64,000 nt of DNA, from assembly GCF_003721515.1 (NCBI RefSeq), contig NZ_RJJD01000002.1, positions 124,001 to 188,000 of the forward strand. The letters are read 5' to 3'. Below the pieces are notes generated by a model. It was given only the letters and a program-made list of their open reading frames with translations, was not told the DNA's origin and did not search any database. The stretch's first letter is position 1; each line of letters starts with the position of its first letter. The DNA comes from Rufibacter latericius (GTDB taxonomy: Bacteria; Bacteroidota; Bacteroidia; Cytophagales; Hymenobacteraceae). Of this stretch, positions 737 through 8,456 are shown piece after piece. Both the position numbers and the translations under genes were made by a program.

Positions 737-2380
737 TTACATCATGCCACCCATGCCGCCCATACCGCCTGGCATTCCGCCACCGGCTGCAGCACCACCT
801 TCTTCAGGCTCGTCAGCGATCACACACTCAGTAGTAAGCAACAGGGAAGCCACAGAAGCAGCGTTCTCCAGAGCAAGACGAGTTACTTTGGTTGGGTCAA
901 TGATACCAGCTGCGAACATGTTCTCGAACTTGTCGTCGCGGGCGTTGTAACCGAAGTCAGCTTTACCGGCACGAACTTCGTTCACGATCACTGAACCTTC
1001 GCCACCGGCGTTGGCTACGATTGTTCTCAATGGAGACTCCAAGGCAGTGCGGATGATCTGCACCCCGGTTTTCTCGTCTTCGTTACGGGTATCAACATCG
1101 TTCAAAGCATCAATAGCTCTGATCAAGGCAACACCACCACCAGCTACGATACCTTCTTCCACGGCAGCTCTTGTCGCATGCAGGGCATCATCAACGCGGT
1201 CTTTCTTCTCTTTCATCTCCACCTCAGTAGAAGCACCGATGTAAAGGATAGCAACCCCGCCAGACAGTTTAGCTAAACGCTCTTGCAACTTCTCTCTGTC
1301 ATAGTCAGAGGTGGTTTTCTCAATTTGAGACTTGATTTCATTTACACGGGCAGTGATGCCGTCTTTCTCACCTCTACCGTTTACGATAGTGGTGTTGTCT
1401 TTGTCAATGATGATACGCTCAGCCTGGCCTAAGTAGTCCAAGGTAGCGTTGTCCAGTTTGTAACCGCGCTCTTCAGAGATCACAGTACCTCCGGTTAGGA
1501 TTGCGATATCTTCCAGCATCGCTTTTCTGCGGTCACCGAAACCTGGCGCCTTCACAGCGGCAATTTTCAAGGAGCCACGCAGTTTGTTTACTACCAAAGT
1601 AGCAAGGGCTTCGCCGTCTACGTCTTCAGAAATGATCACCAGGGCTTTACCAGTTTGTACCACTTGCTCCAATACCGGAAGCAATTCTTTCATGGTAGAA
1701 ACTTTCTTGTCATAGATCAAAATGTAAGCGTTCTCAAACTCAGCTTCCATTTTCTCTGGGTTGGTCACGAAGTAAGGAGACAGGTAGCCACGGTCAAACT
1801 GCATACCTTCCACAGTCTTCACTTCGGTTTCAGTACCTTTAGCTTCCTCAACAGTGATGACACCGTCTTTACCAACTTTGTCCATCGCATCGGCGATCAT
1901 CTGCCCGATTTCGCTGTCGTTGTTGGCAGAGATGGTACCCACCTGAGCGATCTCAGAAGAGTTCTCGATTTTCTTTGATTGAGTTTTCAGGTTCTCAACC
2001 ACTTTATGAACGGCTTTGTCGATACCGCGCTTCAGGTCCATTGGGTTGGCACCGGCGGCTACGTTTTTAGAACCGGCAGTATAGATGGCCTGGGCCAGAA
2101 CGGTAGCGGTAGTAGTACCGTCACCAGCCATATCGGCGGTTTTAGACGCTACTTCTTTTACCAATTGAGCGCCCATGTTCTCCACGGCGTCTTTCAGTTC
2201 AATTTCTTTGGCAACAGTAACACCGTCTTTAGTGATGCTAGGCGCACCGAATTTCTTGTCGATGATTACGTTGCGGCCTTTAGGGCCTAATGTTACTTTC
2301 ACGGCATTAGCCAGAGTGTCCACGCCTTTTTTGATTTTATTGCGCGCGTCTACGTCGAAAGTGATGTTTTTAGATGCCAT
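737..2380 (-). CDS. groEL: chaperonin GroEL (60 kDa, Hsp60)
   Basis: ATP-driven folding chaperone that forms a double heptameric ring in the cytoplasm and works with GroES. The 547-residue length is normal for the family. The nucleotide-binding signatures GDGTTTAT (about residue 86) and VAGGGVAL (near 410) are present, and the C-terminus carries the GGM-rich tail ([14 protein letters not shown]) that lines the cavity. It starts at ATG 2380, 46 bp downstream of the groES stop, with no terminator between them, so groES-groEL should form one transcript. Family assignment is certain. Regulation is discussed at the groES upstream region. Confidence 0.99.
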
Positions 2381-2426: not shown

Positions 2427-2714
2427 TTAAAGAACTGCCAGGATATCTGACTCTTTCATGATCAGGTAGTCTGATCCGTCCAGAGAGATCTCTGTTCCAG
2501 CATATTTACCATAAAGAACCTCGTCACCAGTTTTAACGGTTGGCTTCTTGCCTTCTCCGTCTTCCTCAGAAATAGCTACTACCGTACCTTTCTGTGGTTT
2601 CTCTTTGGCAGTATCTGGGATGTACAGGCCAGAAGCAGTTTTTTCTACCGCAGGAGCCGGTTCTACAATAACTCTGTTTGCAGTTCCAGCAATTGGTTTG
2701 ATGTTTAATGCCAT
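2427..2714 (-). CDS. groES: co-chaperonin GroES (10 kDa)
   Basis: Heptameric lid of the GroEL chamber. The 95 residues match the family length. It contains the mobile-loop region with [14 protein letters not shown] (residues 26-40 approx.) and the [14 protein letters not shown] motif. It is the first gene of the groES-groEL operon and starts at ATG 2714. No Shine-Dalgarno sequence is seen, as is usual in Bacteroidota. No CIRCE (HrcA) element is present upstream; a sigma-54-like promoter is seen instead. Confidence 0.98.
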
Positions 2715-2786: not shown

Positions 2787-2803
2787 AGCGATTCCTGTGC
2801 CAA
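2787..2803 (-). promoter_or_regulatory. candidate sigma-54 (-24/-12) promoter of groES
   Basis: Read on the minus strand the site is TTGGCACAGGAATCGCT. It has the -24 element TGGCAC and, at the exact GG-N10-GC spacing required by RpoN, TCGCT where the -12 consensus is TTGCW, a single mismatch. It lies about 75 bp upstream of the groES ATG. No convincing TAnnTTTG -7 box was seen for groES. A sigma-54 activator gene lies three genes away at 5647-6915. The promoter call is inference. Confidence 0.45.
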
Positions 2804-2814
2804 CTCCACTTTTC

Positions 2815-2904
2815 TGCCAAACTTGGCACATTTTGTCAGTTTTTGAGCGGTCAGAACAGGAGTGGGACTGACAACGTCAGTTGCCAAAGCTAAAATTTTG
2901 TCAG
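2815..2904. promoter_or_regulatory. cluster of inverted repeats and GTCAG boxes upstream of groES
   Basis: Directly upstream of the sigma-54-like site lie TGCCAA-AC-TTGGCA (2815-2828) and five GTCAG/CTGAC pentamers: 2835-2839, 2850-2854, 2868-2872, 2876-2880 and 2900-2904. Two of them form the perfect inverted repeat CTGAC-AAC-GTCAG (2868-2880). The density suggests binding sites for an activator of the groES promoter. This stretch lies in the 318-bp gap between groES and secG, which has no gene. Confidence 0.4.
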
Positions 2905-2976
2905 GTTTGAACCTGCCAAGGTTCTGCTTCCAGGTTGTTTTAAGGAAAACACCCATAAAACACCTGGTAAAAGAAA

Positions 2977-3032: not shown

Positions 3033-3425
3033 TTACTGATTTGCTGAGTCGCCGGTAGCAGGTGTTGTAGCAGGAGCCGGAGTAGTAGCACCCGGCGTCG
3101 CATTCTGCTGTGGGATAGCCGGTGCTGCTGGGGCGGGGGCCGGAGCAGCCTGCCCAGCGCGTTGCTCGTTGATGGTACGGTTATCTGCACCAGAACCGTT
3201 GTTGACAATGGTATGGGAAGCCAGGGTTAAGACAATGATTCCGATCGCGAAACCCCAGGTTAGCTTTTCAAGAAGGTCACCGGTACGTTTAACGCCCATT
3301 AACTGGCTGGTGCCACCGCCCCCAAATTGGCTGGACAATCCGCCGCCTTTGGAGTTCTGGGATAATACCACCAACACCAACAGCACGCACAGGAAAATAA
3401 TAACGCTGATCAGAGCAATGTACAT
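3033..3425 (-). CDS. secG: preprotein translocase subunit SecG
   Basis: Small inner-membrane subunit of the SecYEG translocon, which assists SecA-driven export. Two membrane helices are visible: residues 1-20 (MYIALISVIIFLCVLLVLVV) and about 54-72 (LTWGFAIGIIVLTLAS). The conserved loop LSQNSKGGGLSSQFGG and GVKRTGDLLEKLTW lie between them. The C-terminus (residues 85-130) is a low-complexity Ala/Pro/Thr tail, longer than in E. coli but common in Bacteroidota. It is 7 bp downstream of the TPR-tail gene and followed by its own terminator. Start ATG 3425. Confidence 0.95.
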   Translation of the reverse strand: MYIALISVIIFLCVLLVLVVLSQNSKGGGLSSQFGGGGTSQLMGVKRTGDLLEKLTWGFAIGIIVLTLASHTIVNNGSGADNRTINEQRAGQAAPAPAPAAPAIPQQNATPGATTPAPATTPATGDSANQ

Positions 3426-3432
3426 AATTGGA

Positions 3433-5007
3433 CTATTCGTTTCTTAATTTATCAATTTGTTCAGCAAAGTAACTCTTTTTTTCGGGAAACTTCACTATAA
3501 GTTGTTCATAAATTTTGATGGCTTTTTTGCCTTTTCCCTGTTTAATGAAGATGAGGGCAAGGTTTTCAGACACAAGGGTTTTCTTAATCTTAGAACTCTT
3601 CGCCGATAGATCTTCCTGGGGCTCGTTGTTGAGTTGGGCGTTGGCCAAGGTTTTGCGCTTGGGCGTAGTCTTTAAAAACTGGTTTATGATATCCAACTGC
3701 ATGTCCAGCTTAGCCGCCGAACTTACTTCAGGTGCCACCACTGGGGCATTTTTCTCCTTTACGTGCTCAATGATAAGCTCGGGCTGGAAAAAGAAGGGGG
3801 TAGTGGTGGTGAGGTCGTCTTTCAGCTGAATGCTTTCGCCCAAACGGCTTGATCCCATCCAGTAGGCTAGGTTGTTCTGGGTGAAGATGGAAAGGTACGG
3901 ATCCTGCGCGGCCTCGTCTGATGAAGAGGTTCCCTGCACTACCTCAGGAAGCTTAAGGGTTGGGAATTCGTAACCCGAGGTGTCATACAAGGAATCAAGC
4001 TTGGCGATCTCCAGGTACGCACTCAAGCCCTCTTCCTCCATTTGGGGAGAAGTTTCTTGGTCTTCGACTTGAGCAGATAACCGCTCTGCCACCTTCTCAA
4101 AATCGATGGCAGGTTCCTCAAGGTCTTCAATCTCGCTAACCGAGGTTAGCTCCGCCATAATCTCCTCGTGGGAAAGGCTTACGCTAGGGATGGGGGCACT
4201 GAAGGAGGAAAGGCTACTAATCTGGATCAGTTCCAGCAGCTCATCCAAGTTGTCTTCTTCCTCAGAAAGGATAACTTCCGTCTCTGGTTCCTCTAGCTCT
4301 CCCTGAGATTCCTCGGTTTCTTCTTCCACAAAAGAAACGGGTACTTCATGAGAACCTATCGGTGTTTCTTCAGAGGCTTCTTCTCTTACGAGGGTGTCTT
4401 CTAATGATTTTATTTCTTCCCCAAATGGAATTTGGAAATCAACAGGAGGCTCTTCAGAGGTGATTTCTGAAAAAACAGGGTTTTCTTCCTCTTCTAAAGT
4501 AGGAACCTCTACAGAAGAAGAATCTTGTTCCTCTAAGTCGGTTTCTTCTAGATCAATTCCATCCGGTTCAAAAGATTCTTCGGGTTCGTCTGTAGAAGAA
4601 TGGAAATCCTCAGCAGTTGAGGCAAGAGATTCATCCAAATGAGTTGAAACCTGTTCTTCTTCAGGGACTACCTCATAGACTTCATTTTCGGGCTCGTTTT
4701 CGGAAAAAGACTCTAAAACGGTAGGTTCAACCTCTTGTTCTTCCTCTACAAGCGCAGGCATTTCCTCTACCGCAGGGGTGGCATACACCAATTGTTTAAG
4801 TAACTGCCGGTTTGATACATGGGCGGCGGCTCTTCTCAGCTTTTGAGTGGAGAGCATGCTGCCTCGGTCATAGGCGGCTTTTGCCAGGAGAACATGGGCA
4901 GTCTGGCAGTACGGGAAAGACACCACCAAGCGTTCCAGGTCGTCAACTTCCTGGTCCTGGATGGGGGCAACCTGCCGTACAATATTTAAGAATGCCGCTT
5001 TGTTCAT
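3433..5007 (-). CDS. acidic protein with C-terminal TPR-like helices, function unknown
   Basis: A 524-residue protein without signal peptide. Residues 1-75 are helical (MNKAAFLNIVRQVAPIQDQE, then HVLLAKAAYDRGSML). Residues 80-330 are an extreme Glu/Ser/Pro-rich acidic linker that is probably disordered. The last 60 residues (SENLALIFIKQGKGKKAIKI) form at least one TPR-like helix pair ending in KFPEKKSYFAEQIDKLR. It sits between lptE and secG, with a terminator separating it from lptE and only 7 bp to secG. Its neighbours suggest a link to the cell envelope or export, but I infer no specific function. Confidence 0.85.
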   Translation of the reverse strand: MNKAAFLNIVRQVAPIQDQEVDDLERLVVSFPYCQTAHVLLAKAAYDRGSMLSTQKLRRAAAHVSNRQLLKQLVYATPAVEEMPALVEEEQEVEPTVLESFSENEPENEVYEVVPEEEQVSTHLDESLASTAEDFHSSTDEPEESFEPDGIDLEETDLEEQDSSSVEVPTLEEEENPVFSEITSEEPPVDFQIPFGEEIKSLEDTLVREEASEETPIGSHEVPVSFVEEETEESQGELEEPETEVILSEEEDNLDELLELIQISSLSSFSAPIPSVSLSHEEIMAELTSVSEIEDLEEPAIDFEKVAERLSAQVEDQETSPQMEEEGLSAYLEIAKLDSLYDTSGYEFPTLKLPEVVQGTSSSDEAAQDPYLSIFTQNNLAYWMGSSRLGESIQLKDDLTTTTPFFFQPELIIEHVKEKNAPVVAPEVSSAAKLDMQLDIINQFLKTTPKRKTLANAQLNNEPQEDLSAKSSKIKKTLVSENLALIFIKQGKGKKAIKIYEQLIVKFPEKKSYFAEQIDKLRNE

Positions 5008-5123: not shown

Positions 5124-5660
5124 TTACCAATTCGCTACCGTTTTGGTAAAAACGCTGTAAATAATGCGTTCTGTAATTTGCCTGATCTGCGCCTGGCTTA
5201 TCTGGTTGATATCCAGGGAAGGAGGAAAGTCTGCGAAGCCCGAGAAACTTTGGTCAAAGTTGTTTGTGGGATTCTTGGTATCTGTGTAGTTGATCTGAAT
5301 GACAATGGTAAGCCGATTAGCTCCGGCCTGGTCCAGCCCTATGTTACCTCCTGCTGGGGTAGTAGTACGTTGAATAGCCGCGGGGCTAAACGAGTAGCTC
5401 ATAATCTGGCCCTGTAACTGCAAATCACCGGCTTGGGGGAGTATGCGCAGCGTGGTATTACGTTGAAAGTAGTCCTTGAAGTCTTCGGTGACAAACTGCT
5501 GCAAGTTAGATGGTCCCTGGCCCGAAGCGTTGCTGAAGTTGGTGATGGAAATAGTCTTTACATCGGGGGAAAGGTTCACGCCTGAGAAAGAGTAACAACC
5601 GCCCAAAAACAGCGGAAGGCAGAGTAGGAGCAGGTACGTTAAGGGTTTACAGGTCTTCAA
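5124..5660 (-). CDS. lptE: LptE family lipopolysaccharide-assembly lipoprotein
   Basis: Outer-membrane lipoprotein that plugs the LptD barrel and helps insert LPS. The 178 residues include a type II signal peptide with lipobox FLGGC (Cys 22) and then a typical LptE fold start (YSFSGVNLSPDVKTISITNF). The only possible start is TTG 5660, because an in-frame TAA lies 18 nt upstream and the signal peptide needs this start. The TTG is inside the 3' end of the sigma-54 activator gene (14-nt overlap), which suggests translational coupling. A terminator follows. Confidence 0.88.
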   Translation of the reverse strand: MKTCKPLTYLLLLCLPLFLGGCYSFSGVNLSPDVKTISITNFSNASGQGPSNLQQFVTEDFKDYFQRNTTLRILPQAGDLQLQGQIMSYSFSPAAIQRTTTPAGGNIGLDQAGANRLTIVIQINYTDTKNPTNNFDQSFSGFADFPPSLDINQISQAQIRQITERIIYSVFTKTVANW

Positions 5661-6915
5661 GGTCGTATTGTTTTAGTTTGCGGTAAAGCGTGCGTTCAGA
5701 GATACCCAGGTCTTTGGCGGCATATTTCCGTTTGTTCCCATGCTTCTTTAACGCTTTAAGGATCATTTCCTTTTCCTTGTGCTCCAAAGAAAGACTTTCT
5801 TCCTCGGTTTCATGGGAAATGTCCTCCACTTTGTCCTCGTATTCTTCGGGTTCGTCTACGGTGAGCATGTAGCCATCGCGGCGTTCTGGGCTGCGGTAAA
5901 CGGGTTGCTCAATGGGACGCATTTCCTCAAACAAATGTCGGTTAGCCTTGAGAAGTTCCGCGTCTTCCTGCTGGTGCGACAACAAATCGAAAACCACCTG
6001 TTTCAGGTCGTTCATGTCTTTGCGCATGTCGAAGAGGACTTTGTACAGCAGGTCGCGTTCAGAGATCCCGTTGGCCCCGTCAGTTTGGGAGTTCGGGTGG
6101 AACAGGGCAGGTAGCTGGTTCTGCTGTTCGTGCGGCAGGTACTTCCGCAGAGTAGCCCCATTAATTTCCCGCTCGTATTCCAACACCGAGATCTGCTCCA
6201 CAATGTTCTTCAGCTGCCGGATGTTTCCTGGAAACCGGTACCTAAGTAACTCCTGCACTGCTTCTGGCTGAAGGGTAATGGGCTTCACGTGGTACCTTTC
6301 AGCGAAATCACTGGCGAACTTTCTGAATAAAAGGTGGGTATCCTCGCCGCGTTCCCGCAAGGGGGGCACACTGATAGGAACCGTGTTAAGCCGGTAATAT
6401 AGGTCTTCGCGGAACTGCCCGCGTTCTACCGCCTGCATCAGGTTCACATTGGTGGCGGCCACTACCCGCACATCGGTTTTCTGTACCTTAGAAGAACCTA
6501 CTTTGATGAATTCGCCGTTTTCTAGCACGCGCAGCAAACGGGCTTGCGTTCCGAGGGGCATTTCGCCAATCTCGTCCAAAAAGATGGTACCGCCGTTGGT
6601 GACCTCAAAATAACCTTTGCGGGCTTCGGCCGCCCCGGTAAAAGAGCCTTTTTCGTGCCCGAACAACTCTGAGTCGATCGTTCCCTCAGGAATAGCGCCG
6701 CAGTTGATAGCGATGAACTGTCCGTGTTTGCGAGGGCTCAGGTGGTGAATAATCTTAGAGAATGATTCCTTCCCGCTCCCGCTTTCGCCGGTGATGAGAA
6801 CGGTCATATCGGTAGGAGCCACTTGCACGGCCACCTGGATGGCATAGTTCAGCAAAGGTGAGTTCCCGATGATGCCGAACCGCTGCTTCACCGATTGTAT
6901 TTCAATATCACGCAT
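5647..6915 (-). CDS. sigma-54-dependent AAA+ transcriptional activator without receiver domain
   Basis: Bacterial enhancer-binding protein that uses ATP to open sigma-54 promoters. In order: AAA+ domain from about residue 13 with Walker A GESGSGKE (43-50), the sigma-54 contact loop GSFTGA (90-95, Ser where GAFTGA is usual), Walker B GGTIFLDEIGEM (108-119) and an RFPGNIRQLKN sensor II region. A linker rich in Asp/Glu follows, then a Fis-type helix-turn-helix at the C-terminus (AKDLGISERTLYRKLKQYDL). There is no receiver, PAS or GAF domain, so activity is probably controlled by expression or partner binding. The cluster miaB, activator, lptE, secG is, to my knowledge, often kept together in Bacteroidota. 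Confidence 0.95.
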   Translation of the reverse strand: MRDIEIQSVKQRFGIIGNSPLLNYAIQVAVQVAPTDMTVLITGESGSGKESFSKIIHHLSPRKHGQFIAINCGAIPEGTIDSELFGHEKGSFTGAAEARKGYFEVTNGGTIFLDEIGEMPLGTQARLLRVLENGEFIKVGSSKVQKTDVRVVAATNVNLMQAVERGQFREDLYYRLNTVPISVPPLRERGEDTHLLFRKFASDFAERYHVKPITLQPEAVQELLRYRFPGNIRQLKNIVEQISVLEYEREINGATLRKYLPHEQQNQLPALFHPNSQTDGANGISERDLLYKVLFDMRKDMNDLKQVVFDLLSHQQEDAELLKANRHLFEEMRPIEQPVYRSPERRDGYMLTVDEPEEYEDKVEDISHETEEESLSLEHKEKEMILKALKKHGNKRKYAAKDLGISERTLYRKLKQYDLEDL

Positions 6916-6997: not shown

Positions 6998-8431
6998 TTA
7001 TAAAATGGGTTCCCCGAACAAGGTGCCTACGGAGCAGTCTGTGATGAGCACGTCTACATAGTCGCCTTTCTTGAAGTTCATCTTGGGGAAGATGACCACT
7101 TTGTTCTGATCGTTGCGCCCGCTGAGCATGTCATCTGAGCGCTTGGAGAAGTTTTCTACCAAGACCTTAGATACTTTGCCTACATCCAGTTTGTTCCTCT
7201 CAAGGGAGTAGTGACGCTGCTTGTCAATGATTTCCTGAAGGCGACGCTTCTTCGTTTCAAGGGGAACATCGTCCTTTAGTTTGCGAGCCGCCAACGTGCC
7301 GGGGCGCTCAGAGTAGAAGAACATATAGGCGTAGTCATACTGCACGTAATCAATAAGCGACAACGTGTCCTGGTGCTCTTCCTCAGTCTCGGTGCAGAAA
7401 CCGGCGATCATGTCGGTGGAGATTCCGCATTCCACGCCCAAAATACGGCGGATGGCGTCTACGCGCTCCATGTACCAGGCACGGTCATAGGTGCGGTTCA
7501 TAAGGTCCAGCACGCGCGAGTTGCCGCTCTGGGCCGGCAAGTGGATGTATTTGCAGATGTTGTCGTACTTTTTCATGGTGTACAATACATCATCCGTGAT
7601 GTCTTTAGGATGAGAGGTGGAGAACCTTACGCGCAGCTCCGGACTTATCAAAGCCACCTTTTCCAGGAGTTGGGCAAAGTTTACTCTTTCTATTCCATCT
7701 TCTGAGGCCCACTTGTAGGAATCTACGTTTTGGCCAAGCAACGTCACTTCTTTGTAGCCTTGGGCTACCAGTTCCTGGGCTTCTCGCACGATAGAGTGAG
7801 CATCACGGCTGCGCTCACGGCCCCGGGTGAAGGGCACCACGCAGAAAGAACACATGTTGTCACAACCCCGCATGATGGACACGAAGGCACTTACCCCATT
7901 ATTGTTTAACCGAATAGGGTTAATATCAGCATAGGTTTCTTCGCGGGAGAGCAGCACGTTTACGGCTTTCTGGCCGCCGTCTACTTCATTGATGAGGGAA
8001 GGCAGATCACGGTAAGCGTCTGGGCCCACTACCAGATCCACCATTTTCTCTTCTTCCAGCAGGTTCTTCTTCAGACGTTCGGCCATGCAGCCCAATACAC
8101 CTACTACCAAGCCAGGTTTCTTTTTCTTCAGGTGCTGCAACTGGGTTAACCGATGACGCACGGTTTGTTCCGCCTTCTCCCTAATGGAGCAGGTGTTCAA
8201 CAATACCAGGTCAGCGTTGGTCACTTCTGAGGTGGTGTCAAATCCGGCTTCAAACAGGATAGACGAAACGATCTCGCTATCAGAGAAATTCATCTGGCAG
8301 CCGTAGCTCTCAATATAAAGTTTACGCTGGCGACCAGTGTTTGAATCAGTCGTAACTTTGGTATCACACGCAGCAGCTTGCTCCGGCGTGCGGTTGTCAA
8401 TGAAGTCTAAGTCCAGAATGGGTGCGTGCAT
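6998..8431 (-). CDS. miaB: tRNA-2-methylthio-N6-isopentenyladenosine synthase MiaB
   Basis: Radical-SAM methylthiotransferase that converts i6A37 to ms2i6A37 in tRNAs reading UNN codons. Visible are the MTTase cluster cysteines ([38 protein letters not shown]), the radical-SAM motif [20 protein letters not shown] and a C-terminal TRAM domain. ATG 8431 (477 residues) is chosen over TTG 8452 because an exact -7 box, TACCTTTG, covers 8449-8456, placing the transcript start downstream of TTG. miaE, whose enzyme acts on the MiaB product, is also in this window at 15207. An 82-bp gap separates miaB from the activator gene. Confidence 0.97.
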
Positions 8432-8448
8432 AAAGGGCAAATTAAAAC

Positions 8449-8456
8449 ACAAAGGT
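8449..8456 (-). promoter_or_regulatory. -7 box TACCTTTG of miaB
   Basis: Exact match to the Bacteroidota -7 consensus TAnnTTTG, on the minus strand. The expected transcript start is about 11 nt before the miaB ATG. No clear -33 TTTG was seen. Confidence 0.5.

Follow-up and report, generated by a model that had tools for sequence, protein, structure and literature searches.

Gene organization of the groES locus

The window, that is, the whole 64-kb stretch of DNA that was analysed, carries groES and groEL, several conserved neighbouring genes and a gene for a sigma-54 enhancer-binding protein, at the following positions.

737 to 2380, minus strand: groEL, an open reading frame that follows groES in the proposed operon
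2427 to 2714, minus strand: groES (PF00166, 1.2e-28)
3033 to 3425, minus strand: secG, conserved neighbour (PF03840)
3433 to 5007, minus strand: conserved neighbour with no Pfam or NCBIfam match at E ≤ 0.001, presumably encoding a TPR protein
5124 to 5660, minus strand: lptE, conserved neighbour (PF04390)
5647 to 6915, minus strand: proposed heat-shock activator, a sigma-54 enhancer-binding protein of 422 aa (PF00158 core, 2.5e-68)
6998 to 8452, minus strand: miaB, conserved neighbour (TIGR01574)

In tblastn searches, groEL showed 67-98% identity to the groEL genes located beside groES in relatives. The original prediction of an intact AAA+ core in the protein encoded at 5647-6915 was borne out by a profile search, which identified an AAA+ lid and a Fis-type helix-turn-helix (HTH) domain besides the PF00158 core. 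No N-terminal receiver or sensor domain was found in the Pfam search or in the predicted structure, the sigma-54 domain starting from residue 15. The predicted structure (mean pLDDT 82) comprised an AAA+ region from the N terminus, a linker helix (residues 286-314) and the HTH (residues 377-416), with low-confidence stretches at residues 264-283 and 333-375. The loop motif read GSFTGA for GAFTGA, and most aligned orthologs had one of these two forms; many columns of the HTH were invariant among them.

Against the PspF equivalog model TIGR02974, the activator scored 261.9 bits, below the curated cut-off of 443.55. The structure comparison of the AAA+ core matched PspF structures such as 2bjw, and FleQ and NtrC chains scored higher. 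The protein resembles PspF of the phage-shock system in being an AAA+ sigma-54 activator that has a Fis-type HTH, lacks an N-terminal sensor and is linked to a stress response. It differs in that its family has a longer linker and the conserved helix at 286-314, and is proposed to serve cytoplasmic chaperones, whereas PspF responds to envelope stress and is inhibited by PspA.

The groES promoter and its upstream region

A predicted sigma-54 promoter was located upstream of groES, and short boxes and repeats were found behind it; distances are given from the start of the -24 element.

2787 to 2803, minus strand: putative sigma-54 -24/-12 promoter of groES, TTGGCACAGGAATCGCT, identified from the sequence and conserved in relatives
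2787 to 2791, minus strand: -12 element of the groES promoter, TCGCT
2797 to 2803, minus strand: -24 element of the groES promoter, TTGGCAC
2814 to 2819, minus strand: half-site TGGCAG, beginning at a distance of exactly 16 bp upstream
2815 to 2828: inverted repeat TGCCAA-N2-TTGGCA, read from the sequence letters
2834 to 2839, minus strand: half-site CTGACA, 36 bp upstream (distance from coordinates), on a 10.6-bp grid
2850 to 2854, minus strand: box of the GTCAG type, reading CTGAC on this strand
2867 to 2881, no strand assigned: inverted repeat ACTGAC-N3-GTCAGT, containing the half-site TGTCAG (2868-2873), 70 bp upstream and near the grid
2885 to 2892, minus strand: exact TAnnTTTG housekeeping box, TAGCTTTG
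2899 to 2904, minus strand: half-site CTGACA, close to the grid at 101 bp upstream
2902 to 2915: inverted repeat CAGGTT-N2-AACCTG, read from the sequence letters
2913 to 2918, minus strand: half-site TGGCAG at 115 bp upstream, not on the grid

The site TTGGCACAGGAATCGCT, described beforehand as TTGGCAC...TCGCT with GG-N10-GC spacing, was present and begins 89 bp ahead of the groES start codon (ATG at 2714); from its position, the transcription start is predicted at approximately 2776. The 17-base sigma-54 consensus is YTGGCACGNNNNTTGCW. Comparison of the two sequences gave agreement at 11 of the 13 specified bases, so that there are two mismatches and not one as originally counted. All five of the reported GTCAG/CTGAC boxes were found within 2835-2904, forming the densest cluster of the 64-kb window; the window as a whole averages 0.157 boxes per 118 bp, and no other separate cluster held more than 2. 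The two inverted repeats noticed earlier are real, and three short ones were located.

No CIRCE element was present upstream of groES, as had been stated (best match 10/18 arm bases), whereas the claim that a TAnnTTTG box was lacking was incorrect in view of the exact match at 2885-2892. CIRCE and housekeeping boxes were rejected as the main groES control after this motif check of the upstream region. A housekeeping promoter such as TAGCTTTG could in principle be the main one for groES, the sigma-54 site being minor, and the exactness of the box speaks for it. However, no TAnnTTTG was seen by eye at the equivalent place in the groES upstream sequences of relatives, the sigma-54 site is conserved there, and the part of PMC9723704 (which we take to be Guerin et al., 2021) used here lists a groESL start with a sigma-54 site in Flavobacterium psychrophilum. 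We therefore hold this explanation to be very improbable.

The stricter pattern YTGGCACANRAANNGNW occurred a single time in the 5.67-Mb genome, at the groES site, and this first consensus was thus too narrow. A looser -24/-12 pattern gave 8 sites genome-wide versus 6 in the control, with dnaK as the sole clear chaperone among the downstream open reading frames that were read; the -24/-12 motif alone therefore does not define the regulon in this genome. A rate so close to the control would be compatible with a chance match at groES, but the conservation, operator and phasing results given below argue against it, leaving this reading hardly credible. The rpoN gene was present in the genome, as in all 118 of the 118 genomes sampled from the phylum.

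Two other -24/-12 sites in the genome (the pair L163 and L169) lay 46 bp before an efflux adaptor gene and 17 bp before a gene with a weak glycine-zipper/OmpA lipoprotein match, with no operator in the 60 bp shown upstream of either. These sites are possibly served by other activators.

Conservation of the promoter at groES and dnaK

With a scanning consensus that was tuned after inspection of the groES and dnaK sites, the best sigma-54-like site was better than shuffled sequences (p ≤ 0.05) in 32/38 groES and 43/43 dnaK upstream regions. The same scan on the reverse strand gave 2/38 and 2/43, respectively, and of 90 further upstream regions taken from these loci, 5 passed p ≤ 0.05. The groES set comprised 38 of 40 fetched stretches (L081 and L082 were dropped). 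When only the literature consensus was applied, 25/43 dnaK and 11/38 groES regions were recovered, compared with 0/43 and 0/38 on the reverse strands. The p-values for the promoter, and those for the operator described below, are not corrected for relatedness. Many of the same sequences had already been seen when the consensus and the operator pattern were picked; loci from named organisms (80 named loci) served as the independent set.

Many relatives had GA or GT instead of GC in the -12 element. The six groES regions that missed p ≤ 0.05 included that of G143 (p 0.10), a genome in which the activator described here is the sole protein of its type (see below). Lack of a conserved GG-N10-GC site upstream of groES in relatives had been named at the outset as evidence against sigma-54 control; the counts obtained favour the claim, and a conserved sigma-54 promoter at groES holds up computationally.

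Candidate operator and helical phasing

A candidate operator, TGNCA-N3-TGNCA, was found upstream of the dnaK site in 30/43 regions versus 0.3 expected from shuffles, the pattern having first been noticed in 30 of these same dnaK sequences. Its occurrences at dnaK spanned 24/36 genera and 15/26 families, and in a scan of half-site spacings from 0 to 12, a spacing of 3 stood out. The N3 operator was found in 11/38 groES regions, and a spacing of 4 in 10/38. The exact N3 form was thus absent from 13/43 dnaK and 27/38 groES regions, although operator half-sites amounted to 2.66 per groES region versus 0.26 in shuffled sequences. A TGNCAG beginning precisely 16 bp before the -24 start was present in the window, in 15/24 groES regions of the named set and in 11/38 of the first set.

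The 25 operator distances at dnaK (24 genera, one of which contributed two values) were phased with R 0.886 at 10.65 bp, a value matched by 0 of 5000 random sets in a comparison that ignores relatedness. After removal of the cluster at 28 bp (n=14), 0 of 20000 random sets were as high. The half-site phases of groES and dnaK were alike (4.1 to 5.7 bp).

In several Flavobacterium-type loci, the N3 operator at groES was seen to overlap what by eye resembles the secG terminator hairpin, and upstream of groES in L087, L091, L092, L094 and L096 such a hairpin overlapped operator-like repeats. The terminator and the operator may share DNA at groES. Because of this coincidence, the half-site at 16 bp is the safer evidence at groES than the N3 operator.

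Joint occurrence of operator and promoter

A joint search required a promoter-like site with the exact operator no more than 115 bp upstream of it; no prior knowledge of grpE and clpB was used, while matches at dnaK and groES were anticipated. The searched part of the window's own genome (1.16 Mb, about a fifth of it) gave four matches including dnaK and grpE, versus 0 in the reversed and 0 in the complemented sequence. A looser anchor gave five matches: dnaK, grpE, an opposite-strand match next to the grpE site, and two more. At grpE, the identity of which was assigned by NCBIfam, the operator was 17.5 bp upstream of a site with GG-N10-GC spacing.

The 80 named loci (1.13 Mb) yielded 25 matches versus 0 in the reversed sequence. 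Twenty-one were beside groES across 18 loci, one of them on the opposite strand, and another preceded a ClpB gene in L254 (1118 bits, below the curated cut-off of 1232), the one locus on which the membership of clpB is based. The remaining matches were found in L222 (one) and in L276 (two; outside the ortholog group).

Distribution of the activator and genomes with a single activator

The best match to the activator reached E ≤ 1e-98 in 385/396 genomes of the class; the others were G188, G195, G228, G398, G402, G429, G463, G478, G494, G503, and G509. As this survey scored four candidates per genome, activators were counted by a PF00158 search instead. The gene was linked to groES in 25/40 stretches and located elsewhere in 14 of the 15 other genomes, that is, in all but G025.

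The PF00158 search (E ≤ 1e-10) covered 18 genomes, most of them chosen for few activators. This activator was the sole PF00158 protein in nine (G143, G166, G240, G335, G348, G424, G434, G484, and G504); two such proteins were detected in five and none in G025 and G509. In G188 and G402, the single match was a different activator with a receiver-like start and no HTH at its end. Activators of 388-389 aa that have a receiver-like start, lack an HTH and stop directly behind the AAA+ lid were observed in three genomes (L172, L174, and L175).

The dnaK start was readable in eight of the sole-activator genomes (G240 was unreadable), and the dnaK site was present in all eight; in G348, it was just 28 bp from the ATG. 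The exact dnaK operator was found in two of them (G434 and G504), and the other six had copies with one mismatch (7/8 fixed bases). The low count of exact operators lowers the confidence that the activator binds the operator. In addition, G025 (93% complete) and G509 (92%) kept the dnaK promoter and operator with no PF00158 protein detected, and G402 (100% complete, 280 contigs) kept the dnaK site although its only PF00158 protein was not the ortholog. All three are multi-contig assemblies, and lost contigs could explain the absence of the activator.

These results bear on an alternative in which the sigma-54 promoters are real and some other regulator, either a repressor or a co-activator, occupies the operator, with the activator acting as one of several or from solution. 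In most sigma-54 systems, the operators of the activator lie farther from the promoter than here. The unusual closeness of the operators, which begin just 16 bp upstream of the -24 box, means that another protein could bind them, and the scarcity of exact dnaK operators in sole-activator genomes, the dnaK site of G402 and four further activator matches at E ≤ 1e-60 in the window's own genome point the same way. Opposed to this are the nine genomes in which this activator alone was detected, the helical phasing across several spacings, which suits a polymerase-facing protein, and the invariant HTH columns in aligned orthologs. On balance we consider binding by another regulator unlikely.

The strongest case among the sole-activator genomes was G166 (489,825 bp; 21.8% GC in the first 400 kb; loci L289-L313). 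It had one rpoN match (43% identity) and exactly one detected sigma-54 activator (49%), and the top three promoter scores among its 332 upstream regions were those of dnaK, groES, and lon. The joint search gave no exact match of operator plus promoter in this genome, and no clear -24 box was seen at its grpE.

Proposed mechanism

From the promoter, operator, phasing, shared motifs and co-occurrence, all evidence at the sequence level, we propose that groESL would be transcribed from the sigma-54 promoter at 2787-2803. The activator encoded at 5647-6915 would act on TGNCA-type half-sites, with TGNCA-N3-TGNCA as the full operator. These half-sites would occupy one side of the DNA helix at distances between 16 and about 100 bp ahead of the -24 box, and the AAA+ ATPase of the activator would open the sigma-54 polymerase. 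Expression of dnaK, grpE, and clpB would be driven by this activator and operator as well, giving the class a heat-shock regulon (for protein-folding stress) that would substitute for sigma-32 or HrcA. Since the activator has no receiver, ligand or sensor domain, control in trans is proposed: it is probably kept inactive by a partner, perhaps a chaperone such as DnaK or GroEL that is freed by misfolded protein. Binding of the predicted operator by the activator, induction by heat and misfolded protein as the signal are expected under this scheme.

The case for the nearby activator as the best candidate driver of the groES promoter holds up computationally. To the scheme in which the sigma-54 groESL promoter and this activator on TGNCA half-sites form the class heat-shock regulon we assign a probability of roughly three in four. 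The wider proposition, to which we lean by a modest degree, is that the whole cytoplasmic heat-shock regulon of the class is run by sigma-54 and one sensorless activator on phased, promoter-close operators, and is of such age that rpoN and the activator persist in a 0.49-Mb genome chiefly for dnaK, groES, and lon.

If true, it would be a third main bacterial solution to heat shock beside sigma-32 and the repressor schemes, in a phylum whose chaperone control is poorly described in the literature found. One named activator and one operator would make the scheme testable by removal of a single gene. It would also explain the survival of rpoN and one activator in a strongly reduced genome, and would provide a case of sigma-54 enhancers acting directly beside the promoter.

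Relation to known systems

Bradyrhizobium groESL3, which is controlled by NifA, is an older special case of a sigma-54 chaperonin operon. It shares the dependence on sigma-54 with the operon proposed here but is an extra copy for nitrogen fixation, not the main chaperonin; a groESL copy co-regulated with nitrogen fixation genes is mentioned in the excerpt of PMC6604987 consulted.

Closer parallels come from the same phylum. Mapped starts with sigma-54 (SM4) sites in F. psychrophilum include those of groESL, lon, dnaK, grpE-dnaJ, htpG, and clpB (PMC9723704, Table 2A). An activator gene of that species adjoins lptE, with a locus tag four from groES, and the chaperone activator was left among three candidates in the portion of the paper drawn on here (PMC9723704). 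According to the excerpt available from a 2025 survey, sigma-54 promoters are over-represented at GroEL, GroES, GrpE, DnaJ, and DnaK in classes of Bacteroidota; the survey also describes the grpE and groES genes of Bacteroides thetaiotaomicron as dependent on sigma-54 (PMC12316311). Among the papers listed by the literature searches, these two were the only direct precedents recognized, and excerpts of PMC3162934, PMC12596196 and PMC6604987 contributed nothing direct.

Sigma-54 control of groES is thus already published and not new. The original prediction of sigma-54-driven groES with its activator in the same cluster gained computational support, and its claim to novelty as written did not survive these reports (PMC9723704; PMC12316311). 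The SM4 promoters are alike in gene set and -24/-12 sites, the activator and operator being proposed, and traced across the class, here only; the computed regulons of the survey contain the same chaperones, with no tie to a single activator and no enhancer motif in the excerpt. Neither an operator nor a single named activator for the chaperones appears in the sections of PMC9723704 and PMC12316311 considered, and the supplements of the former may hold more. Judged against these sections, the choice of activator, the operator with its phasing, and the argument from the reduced genome look new.

Promoters and activators outside the class

Outside the class of the window, the form TTGGTAY-N5-TTGC, read off these same sequences, was present at groES in 12/12 fetched loci of family f31. 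No TTGGYA-N6-WTG was found within 300 bp of groES in the other 18 fetched loci from outside the class. In the f31-type loci, which belong to another class of the phylum (L034, L035, L038-L040, L042-L045, and L048-L050), half-sites were mostly located farther upstream. Named full-length relatives of the activator were identified in Balneolales (42-44%), KSB1 (43%), and Gemmatimonadota (35-41%); these correspond to loci L264, L265, L267, L269-L271, L273, and L274.
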